DNA of 64,000 bases from Altererythrobacter rubellus (GTDB lineage Bacteria > Pseudomonadota > Alphaproteobacteria > Sphingomonadales > Sphingomonadaceae): positions 62,001 to 126,000 of the forward strand of contig NZ_CP127221.1 in NCBI RefSeq assembly GCF_030284385.1, read 5' to 3'. The position numbers were made by a program, and so were the translations under genes. Position 1 is the stretch's first letter. Every line of letters starts with the position of its first letter. Shown one piece after another: positions 3,367 to 44,674 of this stretch. Under the pieces are notes generated by a model that did not search any database, was not told the origin of the DNA, and saw only the letters and a program-made list of their open reading frames with translations.

Positions 3367-3371
3367 GCGGC

Positions 3372-5195: not shown

Positions 5196-5281
5196 TGACC
5201 CTCTCCCTTCTTCTCCCCGGAGAGAGAGTGCACTTCGCAAGAAAGATTGTCCAGCCTTTGGCTTGGCCCGGGATCAGGTGA

Positions 5282-6556: not shown

Positions 6557-6696
6557 ATTTATCTCCCTTTCGGGACCTGTGTTGCGCGTTCTGCATTGAG
6601 GATACAAGGGGCGGATTTGCCCGTTCCGTCATTTGAATTTCCCCGCATTGCCGCTATCAGGCGCGCAACAGTCAATCACGAGAGGACAATTTTCTT

Positions 6697-8766
6697 ATGA
6701 ATCGCATGGCTTTGAGTGCTGCGACTCTGCTCGCATCTGTCTCTATTGCGGCGACCGCTTCAGCCCGCCCGATGACGCCGGAAGATGTCGCCAAGATCGA
6801 AAGCATCGGCGCTATCGCTGTGTCGCCTGATGGAACACGCATCGCTTACACTACCGCCAGCCTACCTGATGTAAGCGAAGGCGAAGACAATGGCGGCTTC
6901 GAGCAAGTCCTGAAAGTTGCAACCGGCCCGAACACGTCAACAGTATATCTGCGGGAAGATGTCAGCCCGAGTGGCGTTCAATTCAGCCCCGATGGCAGCA
7001 TGGTCAGCTTCACCTGGAGCGCTGAAGGTGAAGATAACGCCGTATGGGGCGTGCCAGTAGCCGGCGGTACCTATCGCAAACTTGCGGAAATCGCTGATAG
7101 CGATGTCCTGTCTTATGTGTGGGGCCCGAATGGCAACAGCATCTTCATGCTGGCCACCGCGGAAGAAGACAAACAGCGCACCGAGCAACGTAAAGCTGGT
7201 TTCAATTCTGTCGTCTATGAAGAAGAGGCACGCCTGCGCCGCCTGTTCGAAGCCAAGGTTGGCGAAGAAGTGGACGCGGAACCACGCCAGATTCCTGTCC
7301 CTGCCTACGTGACCGGTTTCGACATCACACCCGATGGCAAGACAGGCATCGTGCAGAGCAAGCCGACCCCGCAGATCGACGACACTTACACATCATTGCG
7401 CGTCCACATCATCGACCTGGCCGATGGCAATGTGAAGGCTATCGTACCGACGCCGGGCAAGCTGGGCGACGTGGAAGTCTCACCTGACGGCACGCAACTC
7501 TCCATGATTGCTGGCGTCGACAAACACGATCCGGCGGAAACCACGCTGCATCTGGTCGATGTCGCAACCGGCAATTACCGCGCGCTCAACGAAGGCGCTG
7601 CTGAAGCAACAGTTGATGCAGAATGGATGGCCAATGGCCGCCTCGCAACCATCGTGCATGTCGGCGCGCAAAGCGTTCTGCGCATCTACAACGCCGATGG
7701 CAGCGTGCACCGAGAAGTCGATCCGGGTTCGCTGATACTGACCAGCGTCGAATCCGCCGGCGGCAAGGTTGCGGTTTCCGCCAACTCCCCCAAGCACCCT
7801 ACCGAGTTGTTCGTATGGAACCCGCGCTTGCGCGCAAACGCATTCGAGCGGTGGACGTCACACAACCCGTGGCTGAGCGAGATCACCTTCGGGGAGCAGC
7901 GAATCTACACCTATACCGCGCGCGACGGACAACAGGTTCAAGGCGTACTGGTGCTGCCAGTCGGCGGTATTCCCGAGGGCGGTGCACCCACCATCATGAA
8001 TGTCCATGGCGGTCCTGAGGCGCACGAATCGAACGGCTGGATTACAGCCTATTCGAAGCCGGGGCAGGTTGCCGCTGGCCAAGGCTATGCCGTGTTCCTG
8101 CCCAACTATCGCGGCTCAACCGGTTACGGCACCGCATTCTCTAAACAGCATCAGGGCAATTACACCGATCCTGAATTTGCCGACATCGTAGATGCGAAGC
8201 GGGCGCTAGTCGCCGAAGGCATTACCGATTCTGACCGCACCGGCATTACCGGCGGATCCTATGGTGGTTATGCATCGGCATGGGGCGCGACTTATCATTC
8301 TGCTGAATACGCGGCGTCTGTGATGTTCGTTGGCATTTCCAATCAGGTCAGCAAGTTCGGCACCGGCGACATCCCTTACGAGATGTACAATGTTCATAGC
8401 CGCGCTTGGCCGTGGGATGACTGGATGAAGATGCTCGAAGTGTCACCTGTCTATCACGTCGACAAGGCCAACACGCCAACACTGATCATGCATGGCGAGG
8501 AAGATACGCGCGTCGATCCGGGCCAAAGCCTGGAGCTTTATCGCGCGCTGAAGGTTCGCAAGCCTGACGTACCGGTGCGCTTGGTTTTCTATCCGGGCGA
8601 AGGTCACGGCAATCGCATGGCTGGCAGCCGCTATGACTACAATCTGCGTATGATGGAATGGTTCGAAACCTATCTCAAAACCGGCGACCGCAAGGCCGAA
8701 ATGCCCGGCCCGCGCCCGCAGTTAGCGGATGGTGCCAAAGGCGCCGCAGCAGACGGTGGCGAATAG
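6697..8766 (+). CDS. S9 family peptidase (acylaminoacyl/dipeptidyl peptidase type), secreted
   Basis: A 689-residue prolyl-oligopeptidase-family serine peptidase. Residues 1-24 form a signal peptide (ending TASA-R). The N-terminal two-thirds hold TolB/WD-like propeller blades with repeated 'SPDGT' motifs. The alpha/beta-hydrolase domain shows the nucleophile in GGSYGG (Ser521), acid Asp603 in HGEEDTRVD, and His637 in EGHGN. These enzymes trim peptides in the periplasm. It shares a divergent promoter region with the amidohydrolase at 5282-6556, suggesting a common peptide-scavenging role. A stem-loop with a T-run follows the stop. Confidence 0.92.
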   Translation: MNRMALSAATLLASVSIAATASARPMTPEDVAKIESIGAIAVSPDGTRIAYTTASLPDVSEGEDNGGFEQVLKVATGPNTSTVYLREDVSPSGVQFSPDGSMVSFTWSAEGEDNAVWGVPVAGGTYRKLAEIADSDVLSYVWGPNGNSIFMLATAEEDKQRTEQRKAGFNSVVYEEEARLRRLFEAKVGEEVDAEPRQIPVPAYVTGFDITPDGKTGIVQSKPTPQIDDTYTSLRVHIIDLADGNVKAIVPTPGKLGDVEVSPDGTQLSMIAGVDKHDPAETTLHLVDVATGNYRALNEGAAEATVDAEWMANGRLATIVHVGAQSVLRIYNADGSVHREVDPGSLILTSVESAGGKVAVSANSPKHPTELFVWNPRLRANAFERWTSHNPWLSEITFGEQRIYTYTARDGQQVQGVLVLPVGGIPEGGAPTIMNVHGGPEAHESNGWITAYSKPGQVAAGQGYAVFLPNYRGSTGYGTAFSKQHQGNYTDPEFADIVDAKRALVAEGITDSDRTGITGGSYGGYASAWGATYHSAEYAASVMFVGISNQVSKFGTGDIPYEMYNVHSRAWPWDDWMKMLEVSPVYHVDKANTPTLIMHGEEDTRVDPGQSLELYRALKVRKPDVPVRLVFYPGEGHGNRMAGSRYDYNLRMMEWFETYLKTGDRKAEMPGPRPQLADGAKGAAADGGE

Positions 8767-8791
8767 AGCGTCTCTGCACGACTAAAATCGA

Positions 8792-8825
8792 GGAAGGGGC
8801 GCTATCGGGCGGCCCTTTCTTTTTG
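8792..8825 (+). terminator. Probable Rho-independent terminator after the S9 peptidase
   Basis: GGAAGGG (8792-8798) pairs with CCCTTTC (8813-8819, one G-T wobble), followed by five T. It starts 26 nt after the S9 stop codon. Confidence 0.7.
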
Positions 8826-9133
8826 GAGAACCACTAAGCTATCCAGAAAACACAGGCCACGCCGAATATGGCAGTAAACTGATCAGCTTCGCCGCGCCGC
8901 GAAGTGAAAGGCGCATCCGTAGGTCGACGGACGGTCCATATCTAGCAAGATGAACACCGCTAAGATTGAGATCGCGGCGGAGGCAAGAATCGCCTTGCGG
9001 CTGTGGATCAGTTTTCTATGATCCAAGTAAGAGGCATGGCTGCAGCGCATGCAAGGAAACCGCAGACAGGCTCTAGGGATTGCGCGCCACGCCATTGCCG
9101 CCGCATCGATGCTAGGGTAGGGGTTCTGCCACA
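8826..9133 (+). other. Intergenic region upstream of crtY, no supported gene
   Basis: 308 bases between the S9 terminator and crtY. It should carry the promoter of the carotenoid operon, but I cannot place a convincing -35/-10 pair. A minus-strand frame ending at 8883 encodes a short hydrophobic helix but has no good start codon or ribosome-binding site, so I do not call it. Confidence 0.5.
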
Positions 9134-10342
9134 ATGAATGGGCGCGAAACCGATGTAGCAATTGTGGGCGGCGGACTCGCTGGCGGGCTGATCGCGCTGG
9201 CGCTGCATCGCGCACATCCCGAAATTCGATTCCAGCTGATAGAGGCGGGCAAGGCGCTTGGCGGGCATCACCGCTGGAGCTGGTTTGGCAGCGATCTTTC
9301 TGACGAAGGGAACTCGCTGCTGGATGGCTTTACCAAAACCGAATGGAATAATGGCTATGAAGTCGCTTTCCCTGATTATCATCGGTCAATGGAGGCAGGA
9401 TACCGCTCGCTGTCCTCGGTTGACTTCGACGCTGCTTTGCGCGATCTCTTGCCTAATCAGTCCCTGCGCATTGACTGCAAAGTTAATCAGCTCGAAGCGA
9501 CCGGTGTTACGCTAGAAAACGGCGAACGCGTTGCTGCCCGCGCAGTTATTGATTCTCGCAGTGTGCCGCCTTCAAAACATTTGCTGGGCGGCTGGCAGAT
9601 CTTCACCGGACGTCATTTCAAATATGATCAGCCCCATGGGCTGTCGCAGCCGGTGATAATGGATGCGAGTGTCGATCAGCATACGCCAGCAGGCAATCAT
9701 AGCGCCTATCGTTTTATGTATGTGCTGCCGCTGGCCAAGGATGAGCTGTTCTTGGAAGACACCTACTATGACGAGACCCGGGTACTTGACGAGGATTTGC
9801 TAAGTCGTCGGATCGATGAATATGCAGCAGAAAAGGGTTTCCGCAATGGGGTCGAGATAGGCCGTGAGAAAGGCATTTTGCCCGTCATCACTGGCGGCAA
9901 TTTCGACGCCTATCGGGCCAGCATCGACATCCCGGGGGTTGCCATGGCGGGTGCGCGTGGCGGGTTCAGCCACCCGCTAACCAGCTACACTATGCCGATC
10001 GCTGTCGAGAACGCATTGGCGATCGCCTCTCATGCCCACTTGTCCGGCCCGCTGCTGGCGCATTTCGTCCGTGAACGTGCCAATAAACATTGGCGTAAGA
10101 CGTCGATTTACCGCGCGCTGGGCCGAATGCTTTTCAAAGCTGCGGAACCAGAACGCCGTGTGGACATTTTTCAAAAGTTCTATCGGCTCCCACAAGATCT
10201 GATTGAGCGATTCTATGCGTGCCACACGACCTTGCCTGACAAGTTCCGCATCTTCACTGGCAAGCCGCCTGTACCTATTTCGCGTGCAATCCGCGCGCTT
10301 GCGAGCAAGGGGGATCCCTTGATCATGGAGAAAACCGAATGA
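9134..10342 (+). CDS. crtY: Lycopene beta-cyclase CrtY
   Basis: 402 residues. The FAD-binding motif VGGGLAGG is at 11-18, followed by the acidic strand end (LIEAG) and GGHHRWSWFGSDL, a CrtY-type segment. FLEDTYYDE and GARGGFSHPLTSYTMP match the conserved 'FIEDTxY' and 'GxRGGxxHPxTxYSxP' regions of bacterial CrtY. It converts lycopene to beta-carotene at the membrane. It is first in the operon crtY-crtI-LOG-crtB and overlaps crtI by 4 nt (ATGA). No clear purine-rich SD precedes ATG 9134. crtE and any hydroxylase or ketolase genes (crtZ, crtG, crtW) are not in this window. Confidence 0.93.
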   Translation: MNGRETDVAIVGGGLAGGLIALALHRAHPEIRFQLIEAGKALGGHHRWSWFGSDLSDEGNSLLDGFTKTEWNNGYEVAFPDYHRSMEAGYRSLSSVDFDAALRDLLPNQSLRIDCKVNQLEATGVTLENGERVAARAVIDSRSVPPSKHLLGGWQIFTGRHFKYDQPHGLSQPVIMDASVDQHTPAGNHSAYRFMYVLPLAKDELFLEDTYYDETRVLDEDLLSRRIDEYAAEKGFRNGVEIGREKGILPVITGGNFDAYRASIDIPGVAMAGARGGFSHPLTSYTMPIAVENALAIASHAHLSGPLLAHFVRERANKHWRKTSIYRALGRMLFKAAEPERRVDIFQKFYRLPQDLIERFYACHTTLPDKFRIFTGKPPVPISRAIRALASKGDPLIMEKTE

Positions 10343-29299: not shown

Positions 29300-30166
29300 A
29301 TGAAAATCGCATTTATTGGCCTCGGCAATATGGGCGGCGGGATGGCCGCAAATCTTGTGAAAGCCGGGCACCACGTCCGCGCGTTCGATCTGTCCAAGGA
29401 TGCGCTGGCCCGCGCCAAGGAAGCTGGCTGCGAAACCTTCACCAATGTCCGCGATGCTGTGAAAGACGCCCAAGCGGTTGTCTCCATGCTGCCCAACGGG
29501 GCCATCGTAAAATCGGTCTACACCAGCGACGTTATCGGCCACACGCCGCATGCCGCAACGCTGATCGATTGTTCGACCATCGATGTCGCCACTGCGCGCG
29601 AAGTTGCCGATGCGGCACACGCAGAAGGCTACAAGATTGTCGATGCACCCGTTTCTGGCGGCATCGCGGCGGCGAATGCCGGCACGCTGACCTTCATGGT
29701 CGGCGGAGAAATCCACGCCTTTGAGGCAGCCAAGCCGGTGCTTGAAGCGATGGGTAAGGCCGTGATCCACGCCGGCGGTATCGGCAATGGTCAGGCCGCG
29801 AAAATCTGCAACAACATGCTGCTCGCGATCCATATGATCGGCACGTGTGAAGCCTTCTCCATGGCGGAGAAACTGGGCCTTGACGCGCAGACTTTCTATG
29901 ACATTTCCAGCGTATCTTCGGGCCAGAACTGGTCAATGACCAGCTATTGCCCGGTACCGGGGGTTGGCCCGCAAAGCCCGAGTGACAATGACTATCAGGG
30001 CGGATTTGCCACCGTGCTGATGCTGAAAGACCTGAAGCTGGCGATGGAGGCGGCGGAAAGCGCAGGTGCAACCACCGCGCTGGGCCGCCATGCCCAGGAA
30101 ATCTACGAAGCCTTTGCTGAGCAGAACGGTTCGGTTGATTTCTCCGGCGTCATCAAGACGCTCTAG
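29300..30166 (+). CDS. mmsB: 3-hydroxyisobutyrate dehydrogenase
   Basis: 288 residues of the beta-hydroxyacid dehydrogenase family. MKIAFIGLGNMGGGMAANLVKAGH is the N-terminal cofactor motif; DAPVSGGIAAANAGTL is the substrate loop; GGIGNGQAAKICNNM carries the catalytic Lys. It oxidises 3-hydroxyisobutyrate to methylmalonate semialdehyde, the substrate of MmsA, closing the pathway within this operon. A GGAGAG site lies 8 nt before the ATG. Its stop abuts, with no gap, the stop of the convergent Nmad3 gene. Confidence 0.95.
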   Translation: MKIAFIGLGNMGGGMAANLVKAGHHVRAFDLSKDALARAKEAGCETFTNVRDAVKDAQAVVSMLPNGAIVKSVYTSDVIGHTPHAATLIDCSTIDVATAREVADAAHAEGYKIVDAPVSGGIAAANAGTLTFMVGGEIHAFEAAKPVLEAMGKAVIHAGGIGNGQAAKICNNMLLAIHMIGTCEAFSMAEKLGLDAQTFYDISSVSSGQNWSMTSYCPVPGVGPQSPSDNDYQGGFATVLMLKDLKLAMEAAESAGATTALGRHAQEIYEAFAEQNGSVDFSGVIKTL

Positions 30167-30895
30167 TCATTTCCTTCGGATTTCGTCCAGAATTCGCGCG
30201 AGCCATTCGCGCGGTGCAGATCTGCGCCCGATATCGGCGACGAATTCCTGACCGCGCGCGACACTGCGCAACTTGCCGCCGCGCAGCCAGCGATCGGGCC
30301 TGTCGTGGTAACTTAGCCCGCCGCGCTTGAGCCATTCGGGCCTGTCCCACAGCGTCACCGGACCGCCGGGAACGGTTAGCTGCAAGGCATCGCATGCGCG
30401 CGATGCCTGCACACCCGGCCCGCGATAGATCACATCATTCTTGTGATGCATCGCCAGCGCGTGGGGATGCGCCAGATCAGCGAGCTTTTGCGGTGGGCCG
30501 TCGGCAAGCGGGATTACCTCTTCGACTTCAAGATAGGCGAAGATGCGGTGATGCGGCTTGCCGCCATGATCCCAGTCTCGGAATAGCCCGAAAAACAGGA
30601 ACACATCGCCTAAACCCACGCCTTGGCGTTCCAGATGCGTTTGCGCCGCACCGCATTGCCCGAACAGGCACTCTCCCGCGTCAGTGAACATCGGATCGTG
30701 ATGACATGGGTCATCCGCATCAAGCTTCCCCCGACTTGAGCGAGCGGCATGTTCGCCCAAGCCTAGATCCCCGTAAGTAGTACGCGAAGCAGCCCCCGCG
30801 GGAATCGGCAATGTCACAGGCCGACCGGCCACAATCGGCGACGGGCCACCTCCCGAGCCGCTATCAAAACCCTTGCGAGACAAGATAATGCGCAT
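30167..30895 (-). CDS. Nmad3-domain protein (nucleotide modification associated domain 3)
   Basis: 242 residues. The start MRIILSRKGFDSGSGGGPSPIV, then TYGDLGLGEHA, FGQCGAAQTHLERQGVGLGDVFLFFGLF and HHRIFAYLEVEEVIPL, match the Nmad3 family as I know it. That domain was defined by association with DNA base-modification genes, often of phage. Its biochemical activity is unclear. I start at ATG 30895 because family homology begins there; ATG 30919 is an alternative. It diverges from the nucleotidyltransferase gene across 76 nt. No phage or modification genes are close. Confidence 0.75.
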   Translation of the reverse strand: MRIILSRKGFDSGSGGGPSPIVAGRPVTLPIPAGAASRTTYGDLGLGEHAARSSRGKLDADDPCHHDPMFTDAGECLFGQCGAAQTHLERQGVGLGDVFLFFGLFRDWDHGGKPHHRIFAYLEVEEVIPLADGPPQKLADLAHPHALAMHHKNDVIYRGPGVQASRACDALQLTVPGGPVTLWDRPEWLKRGGLSYHDRPDRWLRGGKLRSVARGQEFVADIGRRSAPREWLARILDEIRRK

Positions 30896-30971
30896 CGCTG
30901 CACCTGCTGCACGGCTCATCTTCGCATGACAAGAGTTTGCGTTCTGGCAATTCGGGACTATTTGCCTGCCC

Positions 30972-31772
30972 ATGGACGGAAAAATCACAGCACTTATCAT
31001 GGCCGGCAAGCGTTCCGGCATTATGGACCCCTTGGCGACCCGGGCCGGCGTATCGCAAAAGTGTGTCGCGCCTGTGCTGGGCGTACCCATGGTCGAGCGC
31101 GTGCTGAAAGAGGTTGCCGGATGTGACCGGATCGGCGCGATCCATATCGTTGCGCACGAAGCAGACGAGATCAAAGCTTTGCCCACCGCGCAAATGCTGA
31201 CCGCGGAAGGCAGGCTGCACTTCAAAGAAGGCAAGTTCAACATCGTCGACAGCGTGTTCTCAGGGGCGGAAGGCGCCAGCTTCCCGCTGATGATTACAAC
31301 CGCGGACAATTGCCTGGTTACGTCAGACGGCTATGCAGAGTTCATCGACAAGGCGTTGGCGGCGGATGCGGGTGCAGCAGCTGCGCTTGCGCGCAAGCAG
31401 GATGTGCAAGCGGCCGATCCCGAAGGCCAGAAGAAATTCTACGAATTCACTGACGGCGGCTATTCCAACTGCAACACCTATTGGATGGGCAGCGAGGAGG
31501 CGCTTAGCGCAGCAGAGATCATGCGCGAAGGCGGACAGTTCGTAAAGTTCCCTAAACGCATCGCCAAGGCGTTCGGCCTGATGAACCTGATCCGGTTTTA
31601 CTTCGGTTGGGGCAGCAAAGAGAAGATTTTCGAGCAGGTCTCCAACCGTTTTGGCTTCAAGCTGGTGCCGATTGTCATGTCCAACGGCGAATTCGCGATC
31701 GATGTCGACAATGAGCGTACATTCGAAGTGACCGAACGGCTGCTGAAAAAACGCGAAGGCGCCGCGGGTTAG
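30972..31772 (+). CDS. Nucleotidyltransferase-fold protein (MobA-like NTP transferase)
   Basis: 266 residues. The N-terminus TALIMAGKRSG resembles the GxGxR-type nucleotide loop of NTP transferases, with the Lys of QKCVAPVLGVPMVERVL and the metal-binding Asp in TADNCLVTSDGY. The C-terminal half (YSNCNTYWMGSEEAL onward) has no motif I recognise. It should transfer a nucleotide to a sugar or alcohol phosphate, or be a kindred CTP/GTP-dependent enzyme. It precedes a flippase gene by 14 nt, so a role in activating a lipid- or polysaccharide-linked precursor is plausible. Confidence 0.78.
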   Translation: MDGKITALIMAGKRSGIMDPLATRAGVSQKCVAPVLGVPMVERVLKEVAGCDRIGAIHIVAHEADEIKALPTAQMLTAEGRLHFKEGKFNIVDSVFSGAEGASFPLMITTADNCLVTSDGYAEFIDKALAADAGAAAALARKQDVQAADPEGQKKFYEFTDGGYSNCNTYWMGSEEALSAAEIMREGGQFVKFPKRIAKAFGLMNLIRFYFGWGSKEKIFEQVSNRFGFKLVPIVMSNGEFAIDVDNERTFEVTERLLKKREGAAG

Positions 31773-31786
31773 GCCCGGCGCGCATT

Positions 31787-33097
31787 ATGAAACGTCTCTG
31801 GCAGAATATTGGCTGGTTACTGGGCGGGCGCGGCTTCAACGCCGTGATGAGCCTTGTCTATCTCGCTATAGCCACACGCACACTTGGACTAGAGGGCTTT
31901 GGCTACTTCGCGATTATCATCGCATTGGGACAGACAGTCACAGGTCTCGCCAATTTCCAGACCTGGCAATTTGTTGTCAGGTGGGGAGCGAATGGCAGCG
32001 GGCCTGCAGATGCAACCGGGTTTGCCATCGCGCTTGATCTGATGTCCGTCGTGATGGGTACAGTGGCGGCCGCGATACTGGTCTGGACGGCGCAGTTGTG
32101 GCTGCCCCTGCCCGATGAACTGCTGTGGCTAACTTTCGGCTATTGTGTCATCTCGCTCCTTTCTATCCGCACGACGCCCACCGGGTTGCTGCGCCTAAGG
32201 TTCAAATTTGCCAAAGCGACCGCAGCCGAAGCAGTGCAGCCAGCAATCCGGGCGGCCGGCGCGATCCTGGCTTTGTTCTTCATGCCGAATGTAACAGGGT
32301 TTGTGCTCGCCTGGGCTGCATCCGAAGTGGCAGTTGCGCTGGCACTCTGGATAATTGCTGCACGCGACGAGAGGATCGACCTGTCGCGCGTTAGCCTTAG
32401 ACGCATTCCTTCCGCGCATCCCGATGCATGGCGCTTTGTCTGGTCGACCAATATGTCCGGCTCTCTGTCCATCGCCGGAAAGCAAGTCATGATCCTGATG
32501 GTTGGCTCCATAGGCGGCGAGGCACTTGCTGGTGGCTTCCGCGTCGCAAGCCAGTTGGGCCAGGCTTTGGTTGTGCTTGCGCAAACTGTATCCAAAGCGA
32601 TCTATCCCGAGCTGGTACATGCAAAGGACGAAGCCCTGCAGATGGCCCGCCGAATGGCGAACATCGCACTGATCGGCGGGTTTCTTGCCGTGATGGTGGC
32701 GCTGTTCGCTGGTCGTTGGGGCCTTACGGCAATAGCGGGGGCTGAGTTCGCGGGCTTTTATTGGGCGATGGTAATCCTCGCGATCGCAGGTGCGGTTGAA
32801 CTGGTCGGCGCGAGCCTGGAATCGCTGCTGGTCAGCGCTGGCAAGGCGCATACCGCCTTTCTCGTGCGGGCAGTGCCGACGGTGTTGGCGCTGGTTCTGC
32901 TTGATGCAGCGATCGACTGGAATGGCGCGAAGGGTGCCGCCATGGCAGTGCTGGGGTCTAGCTCGCTTGCTGTGATCGGCTTCTACGTTACGATCCTCAA
33001 CCTTCAGCAGATCCGCATCCGGATTGATCCGCACCCGGAGGAAACTGTGCCGCCGCCAGAGGCCGCGACAAGCACTCCCGCTGTGCTACGCGACTGA
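31787..33097 (+). CDS. Oligosaccharide flippase / lipopolysaccharide biosynthesis protein (Wzx-like)
   Basis: 436 residues with about 12 predicted membrane segments, starting with MKRLWQNIGWLLGGRGFNAVMSLVYLAIATRTLGLEGFG, typical of the polysaccharide export (Wzx/RfbX) family. It would flip undecaprenol-linked saccharides across the inner membrane. The only same-strand partner is the nucleotidyltransferase 14 nt upstream; no glycosyltransferase or polymerase genes are next to it. Its stop abuts the gcvPB stop directly. Confidence 0.85.
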   Translation: MKRLWQNIGWLLGGRGFNAVMSLVYLAIATRTLGLEGFGYFAIIIALGQTVTGLANFQTWQFVVRWGANGSGPADATGFAIALDLMSVVMGTVAAAILVWTAQLWLPLPDELLWLTFGYCVISLLSIRTTPTGLLRLRFKFAKATAAEAVQPAIRAAGAILALFFMPNVTGFVLAWAASEVAVALALWIIAARDERIDLSRVSLRRIPSAHPDAWRFVWSTNMSGSLSIAGKQVMILMVGSIGGEALAGGFRVASQLGQALVVLAQTVSKAIYPELVHAKDEALQMARRMANIALIGGFLAVMVALFAGRWGLTAIAGAEFAGFYWAMVILAIAGAVELVGASLESLLVSAGKAHTAFLVRAVPTVLALVLLDAAIDWNGAKGAAMAVLGSSSLAVIGFYVTILNLQQIRIRIDPHPEETVPPPEAATSTPAVLRD

Positions 33098-34717
33098 TCA
33101 ATCGTCTTCAGGTTCTGCCCACGCCAAATTTGGTTTGCGCGCAGCCTGCGTTTCATCAAGCCTGCGGCGCGGCGCATAGTAAGGCGCTTGCTTCATTGCC
33201 TCGTCGCCCGCGTTCGCACGTTCGACCAGCGAACGGAAGGCCGCGATGAACTGATCCAGCGTTGCCTTGCTTTCAGTCTCGGTTGGTTCGACCAGCATGG
33301 CGCCGTGCAATACAAGCGGGAAATACACCGTCATCGGGTGATACCCTTCATCGATCATGGATTTCGCGAGATCAAGCGTTGATAGATCGCCGCCAAAATC
33401 TCTGTCTCCGAACAATGCTTCATGCATGCAGGGCCCACTTGCCGCGTAAGGCGCATGGAGGATGTCTTCCATGCTGCGCAGAATGTAGTTGGCGTTGAGC
33501 ACGGCGTCTTCTGCCACCTGCCGCAAACCGTCTGCACCGTGGCTGAGCATATAGGTCAGCGCGCGCGTGAACATGCCCATCTGGCCGTGAAACGCAGTCA
33601 TCCGGCCAAAGCTTTGCATCACCCCGCCGAAATGTTCTTTGGAAAACGCGTCTGCGCTTTCTTCCTCGACCAGATGCACCACGCCGTCTGCGGTGCGCGC
33701 TGTGTAAGGGAGCGGGCCGAAGGGGCTGAGCGCCTCTGACAAGACCACCGGGCCTGAGCCTGGTCCGCCGCCGCCATGCGGGGTGGAGAATGTCTTGTGC
33801 AGATTGATGTGCATCGCATCGACGCCAAGATCGCCCGGGCGCACCTTCCCAACGATCGCATTGAAGTTTGCACCGTCGCAATAAACGAAGCCGCCCGCTT
33901 CATGGACTGCGTCAGAAATCTTCTTCATGTCGCGTTCGAACAAGCCGCAAGTATTCGGATTGGTGATCATCACCGCGGCCACATCAGGGCCAAGCCGCGC
34001 CTTGAGCGCCTCCAGATCCACCCGGCCTTCATCCGTCGCGGGGATATTCTCTACCCGGTACCCGGCAAAGGCAGCTGTCGCCGGATTGGTGCCATGCGCG
34101 CTTTCCGGCACCAGCACCACTTCACGCGCATCGCCACGTGCTTCCAGCGCGGCACGGATACACAGGATGCCACACAATTCGCCATGCGCGCCTGCCTTTG
34201 GGCTCATCGCCACGCCATGCATACCCGTGAGCGTGATCAGCCAATGTGCCAACTCGTTGATGACTTCGAACGCACCTTGCACCGTTTCGCGCGGTTGCAA
34301 CGGATGGACATCCGCAAAGCCGGGCATCCGCGCCACTTTCTCATTCAGCCGCGGGTTGTGCTTCATCGTGCAGCTGCCCAGCGGGAAGAAGCCCAGATCG
34401 ATGCCGTAATTCTGGCGGCTGAGGCGCGTGTAATGTCGCACGGTTTCCGGTTCTGTCAGACCGGGCAGACCAATCGGTTCTGCACGCTCCAGACCGCCCA
34501 AACGGTTTGGCGCATCCGTGTTCACTTCCGGCAGATCAACGCCGGTCACATTGGTGCGGCCGATTTCAAACAGCAGCGGTTCTTCCAGCATCAAGGCGCG
34601 ATTTCCGGTAGCCGTTGCTGGGCCCCAATAACCTTTGGCGTGCAGCCCGTCTTCGCTCGCTGGCGTCATTTCAGGCTTCCAGCCCGATGCATTGGGGGTT
34701 TTGGTGGTCGCGTTCAT
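33098..34717 (-). CDS. gcvPB: Glycine dehydrogenase (decarboxylating) subunit 2, P-protein beta chain
   Basis: 539 residues. The PLP-binding Lys is K308 in [32 protein letters not shown] and [10 protein letters not shown] are conserved P-protein segments. With GcvPA it decarboxylates glycine and passes the aminomethyl group to lipoyl-GcvH. It overlaps gcvPA by 4 nt (ATGA) and is the last gene of the gcvTHPAPB operon. Two-subunit P-protein is one of the two arrangements found in bacteria. Confidence 0.97.
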
Positions 34718-36075
34718 GACAACACCTCCTCAAGAGCATTGGTCAGGGCCTCGATATCCTCCTCGCTCGTGGTCTCCGTCACTGCCACCAGCAGGCCTTC
34801 GGACAAGCGATCTACGCCCGGATAAAGCCGCCCAAGCGACACGCCGCCCAGCACACCCTTGGCTGCCAGCTTGTGCACCACTTCACGCGCATCCTGCCCC
34901 ACCATCAGCGTGAATTCGTTGAAGTAATTGTCGTTGAGCACGGACACGCCGGGAACCTTGGCCAAGCGGTCAGCCGCCTGGCAGGCAAGCCGGTGATTTT
35001 CCGCAGCCAGTTGGCGCAGGCCCTTCTCACCCAGCAACGTCATATGAACATTGAATGCCAGCGCGCACAGGCCAGAGTTAGTGCAAATGTTGGACGTCGC
35101 TTTCTCGCGCCGGATGTGCTGCTCACGCGTCGAGAGCGTCAGCACGAACCCGCGCTTGCCCTCTGCATCAACGGTTTCACCGCACAGGCGCCCAGGCATC
35201 TGGCGAACATGTTTGGGATCGCGCACGGCGAAGAGGCCCAGATAGGGCCCGCCGAACTGTAACCCTACGCCCAGCGCCTGACCTTCACCGACAACGATGT
35301 CTGCGCCCATCTCTCCAGGTGACTTGATCGCACCCAGAGCAACCGGTTCTGTATTCACAACCACCAGCAAAGCGCCCTTCGCGTGCGCGGCTTCGGCTAC
35401 TTCAGACAAATCCGTGATGCGGCCCAGAATATCGGGATATTGCACCACCACGCAGCTGGTCTGATCATCAATGCGCGATATCAGCCCCGCGTTGTCCGGA
35501 GTGGACTGGATCGCAGGCTCTGCTCCGGCGATCTCGTCACTTGTGAACTTCGCCATCGTCTTGACGACTTCGGCGTAATGCGGGTGCAGCGCGCCTGACA
35601 GGACCACATGGTCGCGGCGAGTGATGCGGCTCGCCATCGCAACCGCTTCCCAGCATGCCGTCGATCCATCATAAAGTGACGCATTGGCCACTGCACAGCC
35701 ATACAGCCGCGCTACCTGCGTTTGAAATTCAAACAGCATCTGCAGCGTGCCTTGCGCGATTTCCGGCTGGTAGGGTGTATAGGCCGTCAGAAATTCGCCG
35801 CGCTGGATGATTTGATCGACGCTGGATGGCACGTGGTGGCGATAGGCCCCTGCCCCGAGGAAGAATGGCGCGTCCGCTGCCGCCAGGTTCTTCTTCGACA
35901 ATTTGCGCATATGCTTTTCGACCGCCATTTCGCTGGCATGCATCGGCAAGCCGCGAATAGGGCCATCGAGCCGCGCTTCTTCTGGCACATCGACAAACAG
36001 ATCATCGATGGTGCCAGCGCCGATTTTGGCAAGCATTTCGCCGCGATCGGCGTCGGTCAGGGGTAGGTAACGCAT
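34714..36075 (-). CDS. gcvPA: Glycine dehydrogenase (decarboxylating) subunit 1, P-protein alpha chain
   Basis: 453 residues. The start [31 protein letters not shown] is the canonical GcvPA opening; [35 protein letters not shown] is the highly conserved core segment. It forms the heterotetrameric P-protein with GcvPB. It lies 22 nt after gcvH and overlaps gcvPB by 4 nt, and is under the same glycine riboswitch. Confidence 0.97.
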
Positions 36076-36097: not shown

Positions 36098-36469
36098 TTA
36101 GAGGCCGTCGACAAACGCCTTATAGCCCTTGTCATCCATCAGCCCTTCAAGCTCGGACTTGTCGCCAATGGTCATGCGGAAGAACCAGCCGTCTTCCTCT
36201 GGCGAGGTATTGACCAGCGCAGGATCATCTTCCAGCGCGCCATTGGTTTCTGTCACTTCGCCGGTGATCGGAGCGTAGACATCGCTTGCCGCTTTCACAC
36301 TTTCGACCACGGCTGCATCGCCCGCCTTGTCCAGCATCGCGCCCACATCGGGCAGTTCGACGAAAACAATGTCACCCAACTGTTCCTGAGCATAATCAGT
36401 AATGCCGACGGTGGCGGTGTCGCCTTCGATGTCGATCCATTCGTGTTCATCAGTGAAATAACGCGGCAT
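36098..36469 (-). CDS. gcvH: Glycine cleavage system H protein
   Basis: 123 residues, standard length. The lipoylation site is Lys59 in [26 protein letters not shown] and [20 protein letters not shown] are typical. It shuttles the aminomethyl group between P, T and L proteins. It begins only 3 nt after the gcvT stop, and gcvPA follows. Confidence 0.98.
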
Positions 36470-36472
36470 CTA

Positions 36473-37606
36473 TCAGCTCCCTCGGTAGTAATTATGCGGC
36501 ACAAAAGGCATGGGTGAAACGGTCGCGGGCAAACGCTTGCCCCGCACTTCGATTTCGAGCACGGTGCCTTCAGCAGCCTGCGCGATATCGACATAAGCCA
36601 TCGCAATCGGTTGCCCCAGCGTGGGCGAAAAACCGCCGCTGGTGACTGTGCCGACTTTGGTTTCGCCGGAATAAACTTCCGCGCCTTCGCGCGCGGGCAT
36701 GCGGCCATCAAGCTTCAGCCCGACGCGCTTGGTTGCCGGGCCATCGTCGAGTACCGGCACAAGCGCTTCGTGCCCCATCCAGCCGCCGGCCTCGCGACGC
36801 TTCTTGGTCAACGCAAAGATCAGATCGGCACTGACCGGATCAGTTTGAGTGGTCAGATCATGCCCGTAAAGCGGCAGGCCCGCCTCCAGCCGTAAAGAGT
36901 CCCGCGCGCCCAGCCCTGCCGGCTTAACGCGTTCATCCGCAACAAGCGCATCTGCAAGCTGCTCGACATGTGTCGCAGGCACGGAAATTTCGAAGCCATC
37001 CTCGCCAGTATAGCCCGCGCGGCTAACCCAGAGGTAGGTACCTTCCCATTCGAACAGTCCGGCCGTCATGAAGGTGAGCGCACCTGTGCCGTGCAGCAGC
37101 GCTTCAAGAACTTCGCCAGCCTTGGGTCCCTGTAAAGCCAGCAAACCATAATCATCGTGATGGGTCAGCGTGATCTCATCAGGCAGATACTCGCGCAGAT
37201 GCGCGATATCATCCCATTTGCACGCGCCATTCACCACCAGCGCAAAATGCGGGCCGGTATTCGTGACCATCAGATCGTCAATGATCCCGCCATCCTCATT
37301 CAACAGCAGAGAATACCGCATACGCCCGGCTTTCAGGCTGGTGATCGCGCCGGGCAGCAGCTTTTCCAGCTCTTCACCGGCATTTTCGCCACTGACGGTC
37401 AGCTGGCCCATATGGAAGACATCGAACAGACTGGCGCTTTCCCGCGTCCAATTATGTTCCGCAACGATGCCCCCGAACGGGCCGGTGTACTGGATCGGCA
37501 TTTCATAGCCAGCGAACGGCACCATGCGCACGCCCTGCGCACGATGCCAGGCGTCGAGCGGCAGCTTTTCCAAAGGCAATTCTTCGAATGTTTCGTCTTC
37601 GCTCAA
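36473..37606 (-). CDS. gcvT: Glycine cleavage system T protein (aminomethyltransferase)
   Basis: 377 residues. FAGYEMPIQYTG, SASLFDVFHMGQL, RAGYTGEDGFEI and LRLEAGLPLYGHD are GcvT signatures. It transfers the methylene group to tetrahydrofolate. The start is not an ATG: the frame is open through the riboswitch, but homology begins near SEDETFEEL, and TTG 37606 has GGGGA 6 nt upstream, so I choose it. It is the first gene of gcvT-gcvH-gcvPA-gcvPB. Confidence 0.93.
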   Translation of the reverse strand: MSEDETFEELPLEKLPLDAWHRAQGVRMVPFAGYEMPIQYTGPFGGIVAEHNWTRESASLFDVFHMGQLTVSGENAGEELEKLLPGAITSLKAGRMRYSLLLNEDGGIIDDLMVTNTGPHFALVVNGACKWDDIAHLREYLPDEITLTHHDDYGLLALQGPKAGEVLEALLHGTGALTFMTAGLFEWEGTYLWVSRAGYTGEDGFEISVPATHVEQLADALVADERVKPAGLGARDSLRLEAGLPLYGHDLTTQTDPVSADLIFALTKKRREAGGWMGHEALVPVLDDGPATKRVGLKLDGRMPAREGAEVYSGETKVGTVTSGGFSPTLGQPIAMAYVDIAQAAEGTVLEIEVRGKRLPATVSPMPFVPHNYYRGS

Positions 37607-39142: not shown

Positions 39143-40096
39143 TTACCAATTCGGCCAGAGCAGATATAGTGCTGACCCGACGATCCAGATTGCGCCTAAG
39201 GTCTTCAGCTTGCGGGGCCCCAGCCACAGCGCAATTGGCCGCGCGAGGAAGGCGCCAAACATCGCGCCCGGTGCGGCGAGCAGTACGACTTCCCATTGGA
39301 CAGTGCCCGCATCGACATGCCAAATAAGACCTGCCGCGACGCTGATTGCAGAGATCACACAGGCCGTGCCGACGCTTAGCAGAATGGGGTAGTGGCGCAG
39401 GAAAAGGTAGAACGCCACCAGCTCGCCTATGCCGACCGAGAACAGCGCAGTTATCGCGCCGCCAGGGATCGAGATCAGCGCAAGCATCGCGATATCGACG
39501 GGCTCTAACCGGGTGCGCTCTGGGATGTCGCGATTAAATGTCCACGTCGCGATCAGGAGCGCGACCCCCAGCACGATCGAGAAGCTCTTGTAGCCCAGCA
39601 AAACCGCTTGCCCGTCGAATGAAAACAGGCGCTGCGTAGCGAGCAGAGCGGGGACAGACAGGAGCAGAACAAGTCCACATACGAGCCAGTAATCGCGCAT
39701 GCGGGTTTGAGCTTCTAGATCGGAGGGAGGCTTCTGGTGATAGAGGCGGTCGGTCCAGCGCAGCGCGCCCACGCTCATCCCGAATGCCTGAATGCCCATC
39801 GAGACCGCTGTGACTCGCAAAGGGTCGAGATCCATTGCGCCCAGATCGCGCATCGCGTTGAATACAGGGACGAACACTACCCCGCCGCCTGTCCCGCTGG
39901 CATTGGCGATGATTGCGCCCACCACCCCGACACCCGGCAGGAACCACAGCTGTGTTAGGAGCGCTGGGTTGGTCTCAACCAGCAACCAGACCAGCACATA
40001 TAACGCTGCCAGCAATGTGCCGCCGACAATCGCCAGCCGCGAACTGTGCGCCAGCGTTGGCTGGACAGTATTTAATCGAGGTTCGGGCGTAGCCAT
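39143..40096 (-). CDS. TauE/SafE-family sulfite/organosulfur exporter
   Basis: 317 residues with about eight hydrophobic segments. [26 protein letters not shown] is the typical TauE/SafE N-terminal motif, and a repeated half follows with [22 protein letters not shown]. The family exports sulfite, sulfoacetate or related anions. ATG 40096 lies inside the 3' end of the metH C-part gene (25-nt overlap), so it is in the methionine operon. A sulfur-compound transport role related to methionine or homocysteine metabolism is plausible but inferred. Confidence 0.85.
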
Positions 40097-42699
40097 CGTT
40101 CGGCTGTCGCCATATCGACCCCGCTCCGCTTCGCATAGTCCTCCAACTGATCGCGACCGATCCGCGCGACCCCGAAATACTCGGCTTCGGGGTGGCCAAA
40201 GTAGAAGCCGCTTACCGCCGCAGTCGGATACATGGCGAAGTTTTCCGTCAGCGTCAGGCCGACATTTTTCTCTGCATCAAGCAGTTCGAACAGAATCGGC
40301 TTCAAAGAGTGATCCGGACACGCCGGATACCCCGGCGCCGGGCGAATGCCGCGATATTGTTCCTTGATCAATGCCTCATTGCCAAGCTGCTCATCCGGTG
40401 CATAGCCCCACAAATCGGTGCGAGTGTGCTTATGCAGCCGCTCGGCAAAGGCTTCTGCAAAACGGTCTGCCAAAGCCTTCAGCAGTATATCCGAATAATC
40501 GTCCTTGTCGGCAAGGAAGCGCTGCGAATGCGGCTCGATCCCGTGAATGCCAACCGCAAAGCCGCCAATCCAGTCGCCCGCCGGATCGATAAAGTCTGCC
40601 AGGCACATGTTCGCCCGGTCACGGCTCTTCTTCACTTGCTGGCGCAGGAAAGGCAGCACGACATGCTCTTCACGGTTGACCAGGTGGATCGTAACGTCGT
40701 CACCATCCCTTGCGCAGGGCCAGAATCCTGCAACGCCGCGCGCGGTCAGCCATTTCTCAGCCACGATCTTGTCGAGCATGGCATCCGCATCGGCCTTTAG
40801 TTGTCGCGCGGTCTCGCCCACCACATCATCGTCGAGGATGGCAGGATAATTGCCATGCAATTCCCATGCGCGAAAGAACGGCGTCCAGTCGATATACTCG
40901 CGCAGATCCGCCAGGTCCCAATCGTCGAAAACATGTACGCCCGGCTGCAGTGGGGGCGCTGGCTTATCGCTCAAATAGGCATCGTAATAATTCGCGCGCG
41001 CCTCCTCCAGACTCAGCAGAACACTGGGCGTTTTGCCGGCGCGCGCATCGCGCACCCTGGTGTATTCTTTCGCGGTTTCATCAACGAATTCATCGCGCTG
41101 CGTGTCGGACAGCAGCTTTGATGCCACGCCCACCGCGCGGCTCGCGTCGAGCACGTGGATGACCGGGCCCGGATAGGCTGGATCAATCCGCAGCGCGGTA
41201 TGCACCTTGCTGGTGGTCGCACCGCCGATCAGAAGCGGCATGGTGAACTCGCTACGGCTCATCTCTTCCGCAACTGTCACCATTTCATCAAGCGAAGGCG
41301 TGATCAGGCCCGACAGACCGATCATATCAGCCTTGTTGTCATTGGCCGATTTCAGAATGTCTTGCCATGGCACCATCACGCCAAGATCAATCACGTCATA
41401 GCCATTGCACTGCAATACCACGCCGACGATGTTCTTGCCGATATCGTGAACGTCGCCCTTTACCGTCGCCATCACGATCTTGCCCTTGGCCTTGCGTTCC
41501 TCCTCGGGCAGCAAATCCTTCTCCGCCTCGATAAAGGGGATGAGATGCGCGACCGCTTTCTTCATCACGCGGGCTGATTTGACCACCTGCGGCAGGAACA
41601 TCTTGCCGCTGCCGAACAGGTCACCGACGACATTCATTCCGTCCATCAGCGGGCCTTCGATCACTTCGATCGGGCGGCCACCATTGGCCGCTAGCGCGGC
41701 GCGCGCTTCCTCGGTGTCGTCGACGACATGAGCATCAATGCCCTTGACCAGCGCATGCTCAAGCCGCCTCTCGACCGCCCAACCGCGCCATTCTTCTGCC
41801 GCCTTTTCATCGGCGACAGACTTGCCCTTGTAGCTCTCCGCAAGGTCGATCAACCGCTCGGTTGCGTCCGGCCTGCGCATCAGGGTCACGTCTTCGCATG
41901 CCTCGCGCAGTTCCGCGTCGATATCATCATAGATATCGAGCTGGCCCGCATTGACGATCGCCATGTCGAGCCCGGCGGGGATCGCGTGATAAAGGAAGAC
42001 CGAATGCATCGCGCGGCGCACAGTCTCATTGCCACGGAAGCTGAACGACAGGTTCGATAGCCCGCCAGACGTCTTCGCATGTGGGCAATTGGCCTTGATT
42101 TCCTGCACAGCTTCAATGAAATCGAGGCCGTAGCGGTCATGCTCCTCAATGCCCGTTGCGACCGCGAAGATATTCGGGTCAAAGATGATATCTTCCGGCG
42201 GAAAACCTATCCCGGTCAACAGTTTATAGGCACGCGAGCAAATCTCGACCTTGCGATCCTTGGTATCGGCCTGCCCCGTTTCGTCGAAGGCCATCACAAC
42301 CGCCGCGGCACCATATGCCATGCACAACCGTGCATGTTTGAGAAATTCCTCCTCGCCTTCCTTCATCGAAATCGAGTTGACGATCGGCTTGCCTGACACG
42401 CATTTGAGGCCCGCCTCGATCACTTCCCATTTGGAACTGTCGACCATGACCGGCACCCGCGCGATATCCGGTTCGGCAGAGATCAACTTGAGGAAAGTTG
42501 TCATGGCGAGGGTCGCGTCGAGCAGGCCTTCGTCCATGTTAACGTCGATCACTTGCGCGCCGTTCTCCACCTGCTGGCGCGCCACCTCCACGGCGGAGGT
42601 GTAATCGCCCGCCATGATCAGCTTCTTGAACCGGGCAGAGCCGGTCACATTGGTGCGTTCGCCGATATTGACGAAACGGGCGGTTGTGATTTCAGTCAT
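40072..42699 (-). CDS. metH: Cobalamin-dependent methionine synthase, folate/B12/activation part
   Basis: 875 residues containing MetH modules in order: pterin/methyl-tetrahydrofolate domain (about 1-270; [21 protein letters not shown]), cobalamin cap (about 300-395), B12-binding DxHxxG with H418 (GDVHDIGKN), and the AdoMet activation domain near the C-terminus ([14 protein letters not shown]). The homocysteine domain is absent because it is encoded by the next gene upstream. The ATG shares one base with that gene's stop (TGATG). It requires B12 and is methylated by MetF-derived methyl-THF. Confidence 0.97.
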
Positions 42700-43751
42700 C
42701 AGGCAGCAATCGTAAAAGGTTCAAGGCCGGCAAGGCGCATTTCGGACTTAAGCTTAGGCACTTCGCGCGGGGCCAGCCCTTCAACCGCCTTCGCCATGGC
42801 GCCGATATGTTGAGGCGTATTCCCGCAACAACCGCCAAGAATGTTGACCTGGCCGCTGTCGGCCCATTGGCGAACGAGGCTGGCGGTTGTGTCAGGAAGC
42901 TCGTCATATTCGCCCAGCTCATTAGGCAAGCCCGCATTGGGATAAGCCATCAGAAGCGTATCTGCGATGCCGGACAATAGCTTCACATGCGGGCGCAACT
43001 GTTCAGCGCCGAAGCTGCAATTGAGGCCAATTGTCACAGGCTTTGCGTGCCGCACCGCATACCAGAATGCCTCTACCGTGTGCCCCGACAGGTTGCGTCC
43101 GGACAGGTCTGTCAGCGTGAGCGAAATCATCAGCGGTATGTCTTCGCCGCGCTCTGCCTCCAGCTCTTTCACCGCCATGATCGCGGCTTTGCAGTTGAGC
43201 GTGTCGAAAACCGTCTCAATCAGGATAAAGTCCGCGCCACCTTCGATCAGTGCAGCGGCCTGTTCACGGTAGACGTCCTTCACTTCGTCAAAGGTGACTT
43301 CGCGAAAGCCCGGGTCTTCGACATTGGGCGAGAGCGACAGGGTCTTGTTAGTCGGCCCCATTGCGCCGCACACAAAGCGTGGCTTGCCGTCCTTTGCCGT
43401 CGCCTCATCACAGGTTTCGCGGATGATCCTTGCGGCAGAGATATTGATCTCGCGAACTAGGCCTTCCGCGCCATAGTCCGCCTGGCTGATGCGATTGGCG
43501 TTGAATGTATTCGTCGCGAGCACGGTTGCACCAGAAGCGATATACTGATCACAGATCGAACGAATCACTTGCGGCTGTGTCAGGTTCACAAGGTCATTAT
43601 TGCCCTTCTGGTCCTGCGTCAGTCCGGTGTTGCCTGCGTATTTTTCTGCCGTGAGCTTCGCGTTCTGGATCGCCGTGCCATAGGGGCCATCCTTGATCAG
43701 GATGCTTTCCGCCGCAGCTGTCTGCAACTTCTCGCGCGCGCTGGCCATCAT
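42699..43751 (-). CDS. metH: Methionine synthase, homocysteine-binding part
   Basis: 350 residues equal to the N-terminal module of MetH. The zinc-binding cysteines are in [10 protein letters not shown] and [11 protein letters not shown]. The start [15 protein letters not shown] is the family's 'DGAMGT' region, but here with Y rather than M. It ends one base into the downstream metH part, so a split MetH protein is made from two ORFs. It overlaps metF by 4 nt (ATGA). Confidence 0.95.
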
Positions 43752-44674
43752 GAACCGCCTTTAGGGCGCATGCCCAGCATGTGGCAGATCGCATAGCTTA
43801 GCTCTGCCCGGTTCAATGTGTAGAAATGGAACTGGCGCACGCCACCCGCATAAAGCCGGCGGCACAGTTCAGCGGCGATGGTTGCGCTCACCAGCTGGCG
43901 CGCTTCGGGCCGGTCATCCAGCCCTTCGAAAAGTCCCTCCATCCAATGCGGGATCTCGGTGCCGCAAAGGCCACTCATCCGCTGGACAGCGGCAAAGCTG
44001 ATTACGGGCATGATGCCGGGCACGATTTCGCCATTGATGCCAGCAGCAGCTGCCTTGTCACGAAATTCGAAGAAACAGCGCGTGTTGAAGAAGAACTGCG
44101 TGATCGCGCGGGTCGCACCTGCATCAAACTTGGCCTTCAGGTTGTCAAGGTCGCTTTGCGCATCGGGGCTGTCCGGGTGAACTTCGGGGTAAGCCGCTAC
44201 CGAAATCTCGAAATCGGCCACTTCCTTCAGACCTGCGATCAGTTCCACTGCATTGGCATAGCCGCCAGGATGCGGGGTATAATGTCCGCCACCCTCGGGC
44301 GAATCGCCGCGTAGCGCGACGATATGGCGGATACCGCTCTCCCAATAATGGCGTGCGACTTCGTTGACCTCTTCCTTGGTCGCGGCGACGCAAGTGAGGT
44401 GCGCAGCAGCCGGAATGCCTGCTTCGTTCTGAATTCGTACGACTTGCTCATGCGTGCGGGTGCGGGTCGACCCGCCTGCGCCATAAGTGACCGACGCGAA
44501 CCGCGGACCAAGCGGCTTCAGCGTTTCAACACTCTGCCATAGCGTTTCGCCCATCTTCTCCGTCTTGGGCGGAAAGAATTCGAACGACACTTCGATATCG
44601 CCTGGCAACCCTTTGAACAGCGGGCTGTCGAGCGCGGTGCGCGCTTCGTGCATTTGATCGAGCGTCGGGCTCAT
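43748..44674 (-). CDS. metF: 5,10-methylenetetrahydrofolate reductase
   Basis: 308 residues. SFEFFPPKTEKM, SVTYGAGGSTR, LTCVAATKEE, and HIVALRGDSPEGG are canonical MetF motifs (FAD, methylene-THF). It makes methyl-tetrahydrofolate for MetH. It overlaps the upstream regulator gene and the downstream metH gene by 4 nt each. Confidence 0.97.
   Translation of the reverse strand: MSPTLDQMHEARTALDSPLFKGLPGDIEVSFEFFPPKTEKMGETLWQSVETLKPLGPRFASVTYGAGGSTRTRTHEQVVRIQNEAGIPAAAHLTCVAATKEEVNEVARHYWESGIRHIVALRGDSPEGGGHYTPHPGGYANAVELIAGLKEVADFEISVAAYPEVHPDSPDAQSDLDNLKAKFDAGATRAITQFFFNTRCFFEFRDKAAAAGINGEIVPGIMPVISFAAVQRMSGLCGTEIPHWMEGLFEGLDDRPEARQLVSATIAAELCRRLYAGGVRQFHFYTLNRAELSYAICHMLGMRPKGGS

Follow-up and report, generated by a model that had tools for sequence, protein, structure and literature searches.

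A conserved chromosomal Nmad3-domain gene of Altererythrobacter rubellus with a predicted PUA/EVE/YTH-like fold

EVE and YTH domains bind flipped modified bases. The Nmad families were reportedly defined by Iyer et al. in 2013. Within the literature searched, no published assignment of Nmad2 or Nmad3 to the PUA/EVE/YTH fold was found; the founding Nmad paper lay outside that scope, and an earlier assignment is possible. In EVE domains the base pocket is lined in part by the loop that follows the first strand, and in VcaM4I the pocket is formed by P24, W82 and Y130 with contacts from residues 10, 11, 15 and 22 (PMC7897488). Slow-evolving proteobacterial EVE proteins have been proposed to serve normal physiology and fast-evolving ones to serve defence (Bell et al. 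2020, PMC7641849), and a term search of the main text of that paper returned no occurrence of 'Nmad'. Here we compare with these systems an Nmad3-domain gene that lies in a stretch of 64,000 nucleotides from Altererythrobacter rubellus (contig NZ_CP127221.1, positions 62,001 to 126,000), referred to below as the window.

The Nmad3 gene and its surroundings

The open reading frame consists of 242 codons and a stop on the minus strand, and is considered together with the following features of the window.

29300 to 30166, plus strand: mmsB, 3-hydroxyisobutyrate dehydrogenase, convergent (TIGR01692, E 6.8e-120)
30167 to 30895, minus strand: Nmad3 gene, 242 aa (Pfam PF18754), single copy in the genome, with purifying selection indicated among relatives
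30581 to 30610, minus strand: codons for residues 96-105, which form the G-D-x-F-x-F-F-G strand motif (conservation and model strand E98-106)
30863 to 30880, minus strand: codons for residues 6-11, the SRKGFD motif, located in the loop that follows the first strand (invariant in 41/41 alignment rows; model strand E2-7)
30896 to 30971, no strand: 76-nt gap from Nmad3 to the divergent nucleotidyltransferase gene (ORF coordinates)
30972 to 31772, plus strand: MobA-like nucleotidyltransferase, divergent, variable (NTP_transf_3, PF12804, E 3.3e-06)
31787 to 33097, plus strand: polysaccharide flippase, variable (Polysacc_synt, PF01943, E 3.8e-13)
33098 to 34717, minus strand: gcvPB, glycine dehydrogenase subunit 2 (PF21478, E 1.5e-17)
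34714 to 36075, minus strand: gcvPA (PF02347, E 2.1e-119)
36098 to 36469, minus strand: gcvH (PF01597, E 5.6e-43)
36473 to 37606, minus strand: gcvT (PF01571, E 4.1e-82)

The first-pass annotation had placed an Nmad3-domain gene here from the letters alone, and the homology search bears this out, since the protein matches PF18754.6 with an E-value of 6.7e-74 and 249.1 bits against a curated cut-off of 27, covering the whole profile (positions 1-247 of 247). No second Pfam family was detected up to an E-value of 1, nor any match to EVE (PF01878), and searches of NCBIfam, PHROGs and PADLOC gave no match for the protein. It is the only Nmad3 copy in the 2.30 Mb single-contig genome, and the closest named record is the MAG Altererythrobacter sp. 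XM-24bin4 (99 % protein identity). A longer open frame of 380 aa begins with a TTG at 31309; conservation, however, starts only at the ATG at 30895. The composition-based gene caller missed Nmad3 in the window; the case for its being a gene is made by conservation and dN/dS. In the 41-row Nmad3 alignment D97, F99, F101, F102 and G103 are invariant, and the window protein carries every residue that is invariant across all rows.

mmsB and Nmad3 meet directly at their 3' ends (0 nt apart), and the 76-nt gap at the other end of Nmad3 contains no sigma-70-like site, a single weak match being located at 30973-31000 on the plus strand. The TIGR01692 and Pfam matches agree with the earlier naming of mmsB and of a nucleotidyltransferase/flippase pair as the neighbours. 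It had also been remarked that no phage, methylase or glycosyltransferase gene is found nearby, which holds for the 16 proteins of the window that were run against Pfam: these belong to metabolic and cell-surface families, with no phage, integrase, DNA-methylase or glycosyltransferase family among them. Weak Methyltransf_11/25 matches on the Rossmann domain of mmsB (E 0.1 and 0.005) are below the cut-off. A DNA hypermodification operon is not apparent, as the 16 scanned proteins include no base-modifying neighbour (methylase, hydroxylase or glycosyltransferase). A one-carbon gene cluster is seen upstream of gcv at 40072-44674, comprising a gene for a homocysteine S-methyltransferase (Pfam) at 42699-43751 and the segments 40072-42699 and 43748-44674, which by eye resemble separate metH and metF genes.

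The surroundings were compared over 80 loci, the best 80 of 144 confirmed relatives drawn from 210 pattern matches in genome contigs; nearly all carry Erythrobacteraceae names, a few being labelled just Sphingomonadaceae or Sphingomonadales, and absence of a gene means absence in tblastn at an E-value of 1e-10, with some contigs ending nearby. Among these best 80 loci, mmsB is convergent (tail-to-tail) with Nmad3 in 68, and gcvPB lies upstream on the same strand in 54. In 48 of the 80 at least one member of the nucleotidyltransferase/flippase pair was found, and Nmad3 is kept where both are missing, so the divergent nucleotidyltransferase, whose conservation the first-pass annotation had proposed to check, is a variable neighbour and was rejected as a conserved partner. 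Twenty-one loci carry gcvPB without the pair, and in 19 of them Nmad3 starts 10-19 nt past the gcvPB stop (774 and 777 nt in the remaining two); the arrangement in the window, where the divergent pair separates gcvPB from Nmad3, is therefore one of two local forms. The tight form looks like the end of a glycine-cleavage operon with Nmad3 as its last gene, and in ancestral Erythrobacteraceae the gene was probably co-transcribed in that position.

Six of the best 80 loci instead have Nmad3 divergent from putA (L080-L082, L084, L089 and L093, from other genera, L093 with one extra gene between), and the window has its own putA at 60729-63851, about 30 kb from Nmad3. The orthologous putA beside Nmad3 in six loci suggests local rearrangement. 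Eight congeners without Nmad3, among 15 matching genomes of which these 8 were extended, have mmsB and show no gcv within ~12 kb. The contexts of Nmad3 in Gammaproteobacteria, a class name inferred from gene content, vary.

Inheritance and distribution

All four of Nmad3, mmsB, gcvPB and cro were present at 53 of the 80 loci, giving 1378 pairs, of which 1285 had unsaturated dS. For Nmad3 the dN/dS ratio over the 595 pairs with dS of 0.1-1.5 has a median of 0.204 and reaches at most 0.411, indicating that the gene is under purifying selection in Erythrobacteraceae. Its mean distance (0.383) exceeds those of mmsB (0.259), gcvPB (0.191) and cro (0.166), so that Nmad3 evolves faster than its neighbours. 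Its distances correlate with those of mmsB (r 0.36), gcvPB (0.385) and cro (0.70), none of 999 permutations reaching the observed value in any of the three cases, and the correlation between mmsB and gcvPB is itself just 0.56. Being only moderate, these values were not accepted as proof that descent has been strictly vertical.

A tree was built from 59 hand-picked Nmad3 rows, and its 28 rows from Erythrobacteraceae, L091 not counted, group together in a single clade with support of 97/98. L091, a MAG labelled Erythrobacter, has a divergent Nmad3 outside this clade and carries Nmad2. Because three viral contigs (L128-L130) sit just outside the Erythrobacteraceae clade, an old transfer to or from viruses is conceivable though not established. 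The earlier suggestion of a domesticated phage gene, for which a phylogeny of Nmad3 had been recommended, finds no support in this single well-supported clade, even with the viral contigs just outside it. Nmad3 is an ordinary conserved gene of the chromosome, retained by Erythrobacter-type bacteria of the sea.

In a sample of 396 genomes of the order, 104 have Nmad3, and all 104 belong to the same family as the window. Among 41 near relatives the count is 13, with the A. rubellus genome itself included. A phylum sample gave 9 of 398 genomes, another proteobacterial order 16 of 244 (over 11 of 112 genera) and a third order 1 of 48. A tblastn search with three diverged queries (P0001, L121 and L134) matched none of 50,697 phage records. 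Among 72,556 plasmid records all three queries picked out one and the same pair, large replicons of Burkholderia and Cupriavidus; IMG/VR yielded 11 contigs with Nmad3. From these counts a chromosomal setting is the rule for Nmad3. The setting had been regarded as unusual, with phage contexts as the norm; solo chromosomal copies prove to be the usual form. A phage-borne gene or phage cargo is likewise not supported, given that the 16 scanned proteins include no phage or integrase family, the phage records gave no match and synteny is stable. In one congener (G229, contig 1, 5615-6297) a second Nmad3 copy was read as two pieces and is possibly a broken paralogue.

Predicted fold and possible function

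The AlphaFold2 model of Nmad3, based on 41 rows, has a mean pLDDT of 95.5 and a pTM of 0.92. Its top VIA-align match is MJECL36 (2p5d, rmsd 4.0, 133 residues aligned) with a Z of 9.3, which is slightly above the 7-8 that the tool gives as typical for models without a clear match. Further matches are PH1033 (Z 8.9), the EVE-HNH protein VcaM4I (7.1), the N-terminal domain of McrB (7.0), the YTH domain of Mmi1 (6.8), ZmASCH (6.5), THYN1 (6.2) and YTHDF2 (6.2). The 23 listed entries span Z 5.8-9.3, followed by a drop to 3.9, and nearly all are of the PUA/EVE/YTH/ASCH kind by title or from the literature, two DrmAB entries being left unclassified; a fold missing from this table is not thereby excluded. 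We take 2p5d, 1wmm, 2hd9, 2ar1, 2gbs, 1zce and 2g2x to be EVE-type structures. The structure 2eve is termed EVE in published reports (PMC7897488, PMC5615036).

Foldseek, run with the model against PDB and BFVD, returned nothing at an E-value of 0.001 or better, its weak PDB rows including THYN1, PH1033 and EVE proteins. The PUA-like β-barrel is indicated by the likeness of the predicted model to 2p5d. No sequence link to EVE was found: hhalign of Nmad3 against the genome's own EVE protein gave an E-value of 0.41, no better than the 0.44 of an unrelated control, and a PDB sequence search with Nmad3 gave one chance-level row (E 0.48). On the model, the assignment of Nmad3 to a PUA/EVE/YTH-like fold appears fairly but not fully secure.

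With this predicted fold, Nmad3 is most likely a reader of a modified base or modified nucleotide, to which we assign a probability of about 0.55. It would be a stand-alone, vertically inherited protein whose β-barrel forms a binding pocket for the modified base or nucleotide, with the invariant SRKGFD loop as its lining. By analogy this loop may be equivalent to the EVE pocket loop, in which case the pocket might hold a flipped modified base of RNA or DNA, and the protein may act as a reader in ordinary cell physiology, as proposed for slow-evolving proteobacterial EVE proteins.

An unlikely alternative is that Nmad3 is catalytic and merely shares a PUA-like scaffold, for instance as an amidohydrolase or a nuclease whose substrate is a modified nucleoside or nucleotide. 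The invariant or near-invariant polar residues S6, R7, K8, D11, H65, D67, Q80, D97, H116, H145, Q216 and E217 would suit catalysis, as would the SRKGFD loop, which is stricter than the 'KSEP' loop of EVE, and a greater length and more invariant charged residues than in EVE would also fit. The PUA superfamily moreover has active members, namely the amidohydrolase YqfB (9kyf) and the ribonuclease ZmASCH, although the latter is without a conserved acidic site (PMC5615036) and YqfB, when aligned, scores only Z 2.8. The density of near-invariant columns is, however, no higher than in EVE readers. Columns conserved at ≥95 % make up 28 of 226 core columns (12 %) in 32 diverse Nmad3 proteins of mean identity 0.40, against 21 of 130 (16 %) in 31 EVE proteins of mean identity 0.49, the latter set being 30 loci of 48 matches plus the genome's own EVE protein. 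Narrower sets of mean identity 0.58 give 28 % (21 Nmad3) versus 24 % (16 EVE), and 12 Nmad3 proteins of the other order give 21 % at mean identity 0.49. D, E, H, K or R account for 10 of the 28 near-invariant positions in Nmad3 versus 7 of 21 in EVE. Since the near-invariant share is similar in EVE readers, many invariant residues do not alone demand catalysis, and the charged ones were rejected as proof of an enzyme.

A role in defence, in which Nmad3 would sense an invader's modification or a nucleotide signal and the solo form would be a remnant of a scattered defence system or work with one, is rather improbable for this copy; one point in its favour is the association with Nmad2 (PF18753). 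Nmad2 adjoins Nmad3 in at least 6 of 32 distinct divergent loci (L091, L126, L130, L137, L157 and L172), a lower bound because some contigs end near the gene; the 32 are 31 loci outside Erythrobacteraceae plus L091, with duplicates merged by hand, and the Nmad2 of L126 is only 67 aa long and that of L137 is below the Pfam cut-off. The patchy occurrence of Nmad3 outside Erythrobacteraceae (16/244 genomes) points the same way, as do the cassette of ThsB_TIR, MazG_C and UDG genes in which Nmad2 is found elsewhere and the inclusion by DefensePredictor of an NMAD domain, not named more closely, in its list of predicted defence domains. Against this, Nmad2 is absent from the A. rubellus genome and present in only 1 of 41 relatives, PADLOC gave no match, the neighbours are metabolic, and in Erythrobacteraceae Nmad3 shows one clade, purifying selection and stable synteny. 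Membership of this copy in a defence system is accordingly not supported. L091 apart, Nmad2 was found at none of the other 79 of the best 80 relatives' loci.

Nmad2 also occurs without Nmad3, for example in four IMG/VR contigs (L198-L201). In L173 (congener G014, 3086-5976) and L201 (IMG/VR, 5528-7755) it is flanked by a ThsB-type TIR gene on one side and a MazG_C gene on the other (Pfam), an arrangement resembling a predicted defence cassette. L173 also has a UDG-family gene next in the row (Pfam), with a pair alongside that by eye resembles a type III restriction system. The virus-labelled contig L137 has Nmad2, Nmad3 and a gene that by eye resembles DUF1643 in a row at 7350-9553, with a serine-recombinase-like gene nearby, and at 7944-11745 of L157 Nmad2 and Nmad3 lie near a pair resembling, by eye, an AbiE toxin-antitoxin system. 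For the Nmad2 model (pLDDT 82.5, 7 rows) the 50 listed VIA-align rows, at Z 6.5-7.7, are YTH entries, most of them by title and the remaining few presumably so. The top Foldseek rows are ZmASCH (E 0.02), and hhalign detected no sequence similarity between Nmad2 and Nmad3.

Direct modification of DNA or nucleotides, as the Pfam name and the first-pass reading suggest and as phage nmad5, termed a DNA modification enzyme gene (PMC11846954), would illustrate, is very unlikely in view of the reader-type fold of the predicted model, the lack of any other modification gene among the 16 scanned window proteins and the 0 of 50,697 phage records with Nmad3. The idea of a cellular nucleic-acid or nucleotide modification factor survives in part: the gene is chromosomal and its product plausibly deals with modified nucleic acid, but the predicted fold points to a reader rather than a modifying enzyme, with catalysis still conceivable.

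In favour of a modified-base or modified-nucleotide reader we count the likeness of the model, the similar likeness of Nmad2, conservation of the EVE type, purifying selection and the linkage to gcvPB and mmsB, and against it the Foldseek and hhalign nulls, the modest best Z, the extra length and charged residues, and a gcv link that is not universal. A bolder extension, in which Nmad2 and Nmad3 would be two unrecognised branches of EVE/YTH-type readers and Nmad3 in the gcv operon of Erythrobacteraceae would couple the state of a modified base of RNA or DNA to one-carbon metabolism, is speculative and improbable as a whole.

Comparison with described systems

If the fold reading is true, two families whose names refer to nucleotide modification would turn out to be readers, not writers; Nmad3 would gain a testable function and add to the known bacterial modified-base readers, and an endogenous modified base would be worth seeking in Erythrobacteraceae.

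Within the Pfam Nmad3 family the window protein shows no difference in sequence; what sets it apart is that it occurs solo, without Nmad2, beside metabolic genes. Nmad2 is sometimes adjacent to Nmad3 and its own model is YTH/ASCH-like, as is that of Nmad3; it differs in having no sequence similarity to Nmad3 and is absent here. The YTH and McrB N-terminal domains, which are readers of methylated bases, are the next-best structural matches (Z 6-7), yet have no sequence similarity to Nmad3 in the PDB sequence search. The closest resemblance is to the EVE proteins (PH1033, MJECL36, THYN1 and the EVE domain of VcaM4I), with which the predicted barrel of Nmad3 aligns over residues 1-238 at Z up to 9.3; both have a first strand followed by a conserved loop, and the G-D-x-F-x-F-F-G strand is by eye like the EVE 'GD..FYHS' strand. 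Nmad3 differs from them in being about 100 residues longer, in its SRKGFD loop in place of KSEP and in the lack of detectable sequence similarity. In its inheritance, Nmad3 of Erythrobacteraceae is similar to the slow-evolving EVE proteins, as these are characterised in PMC7641849.
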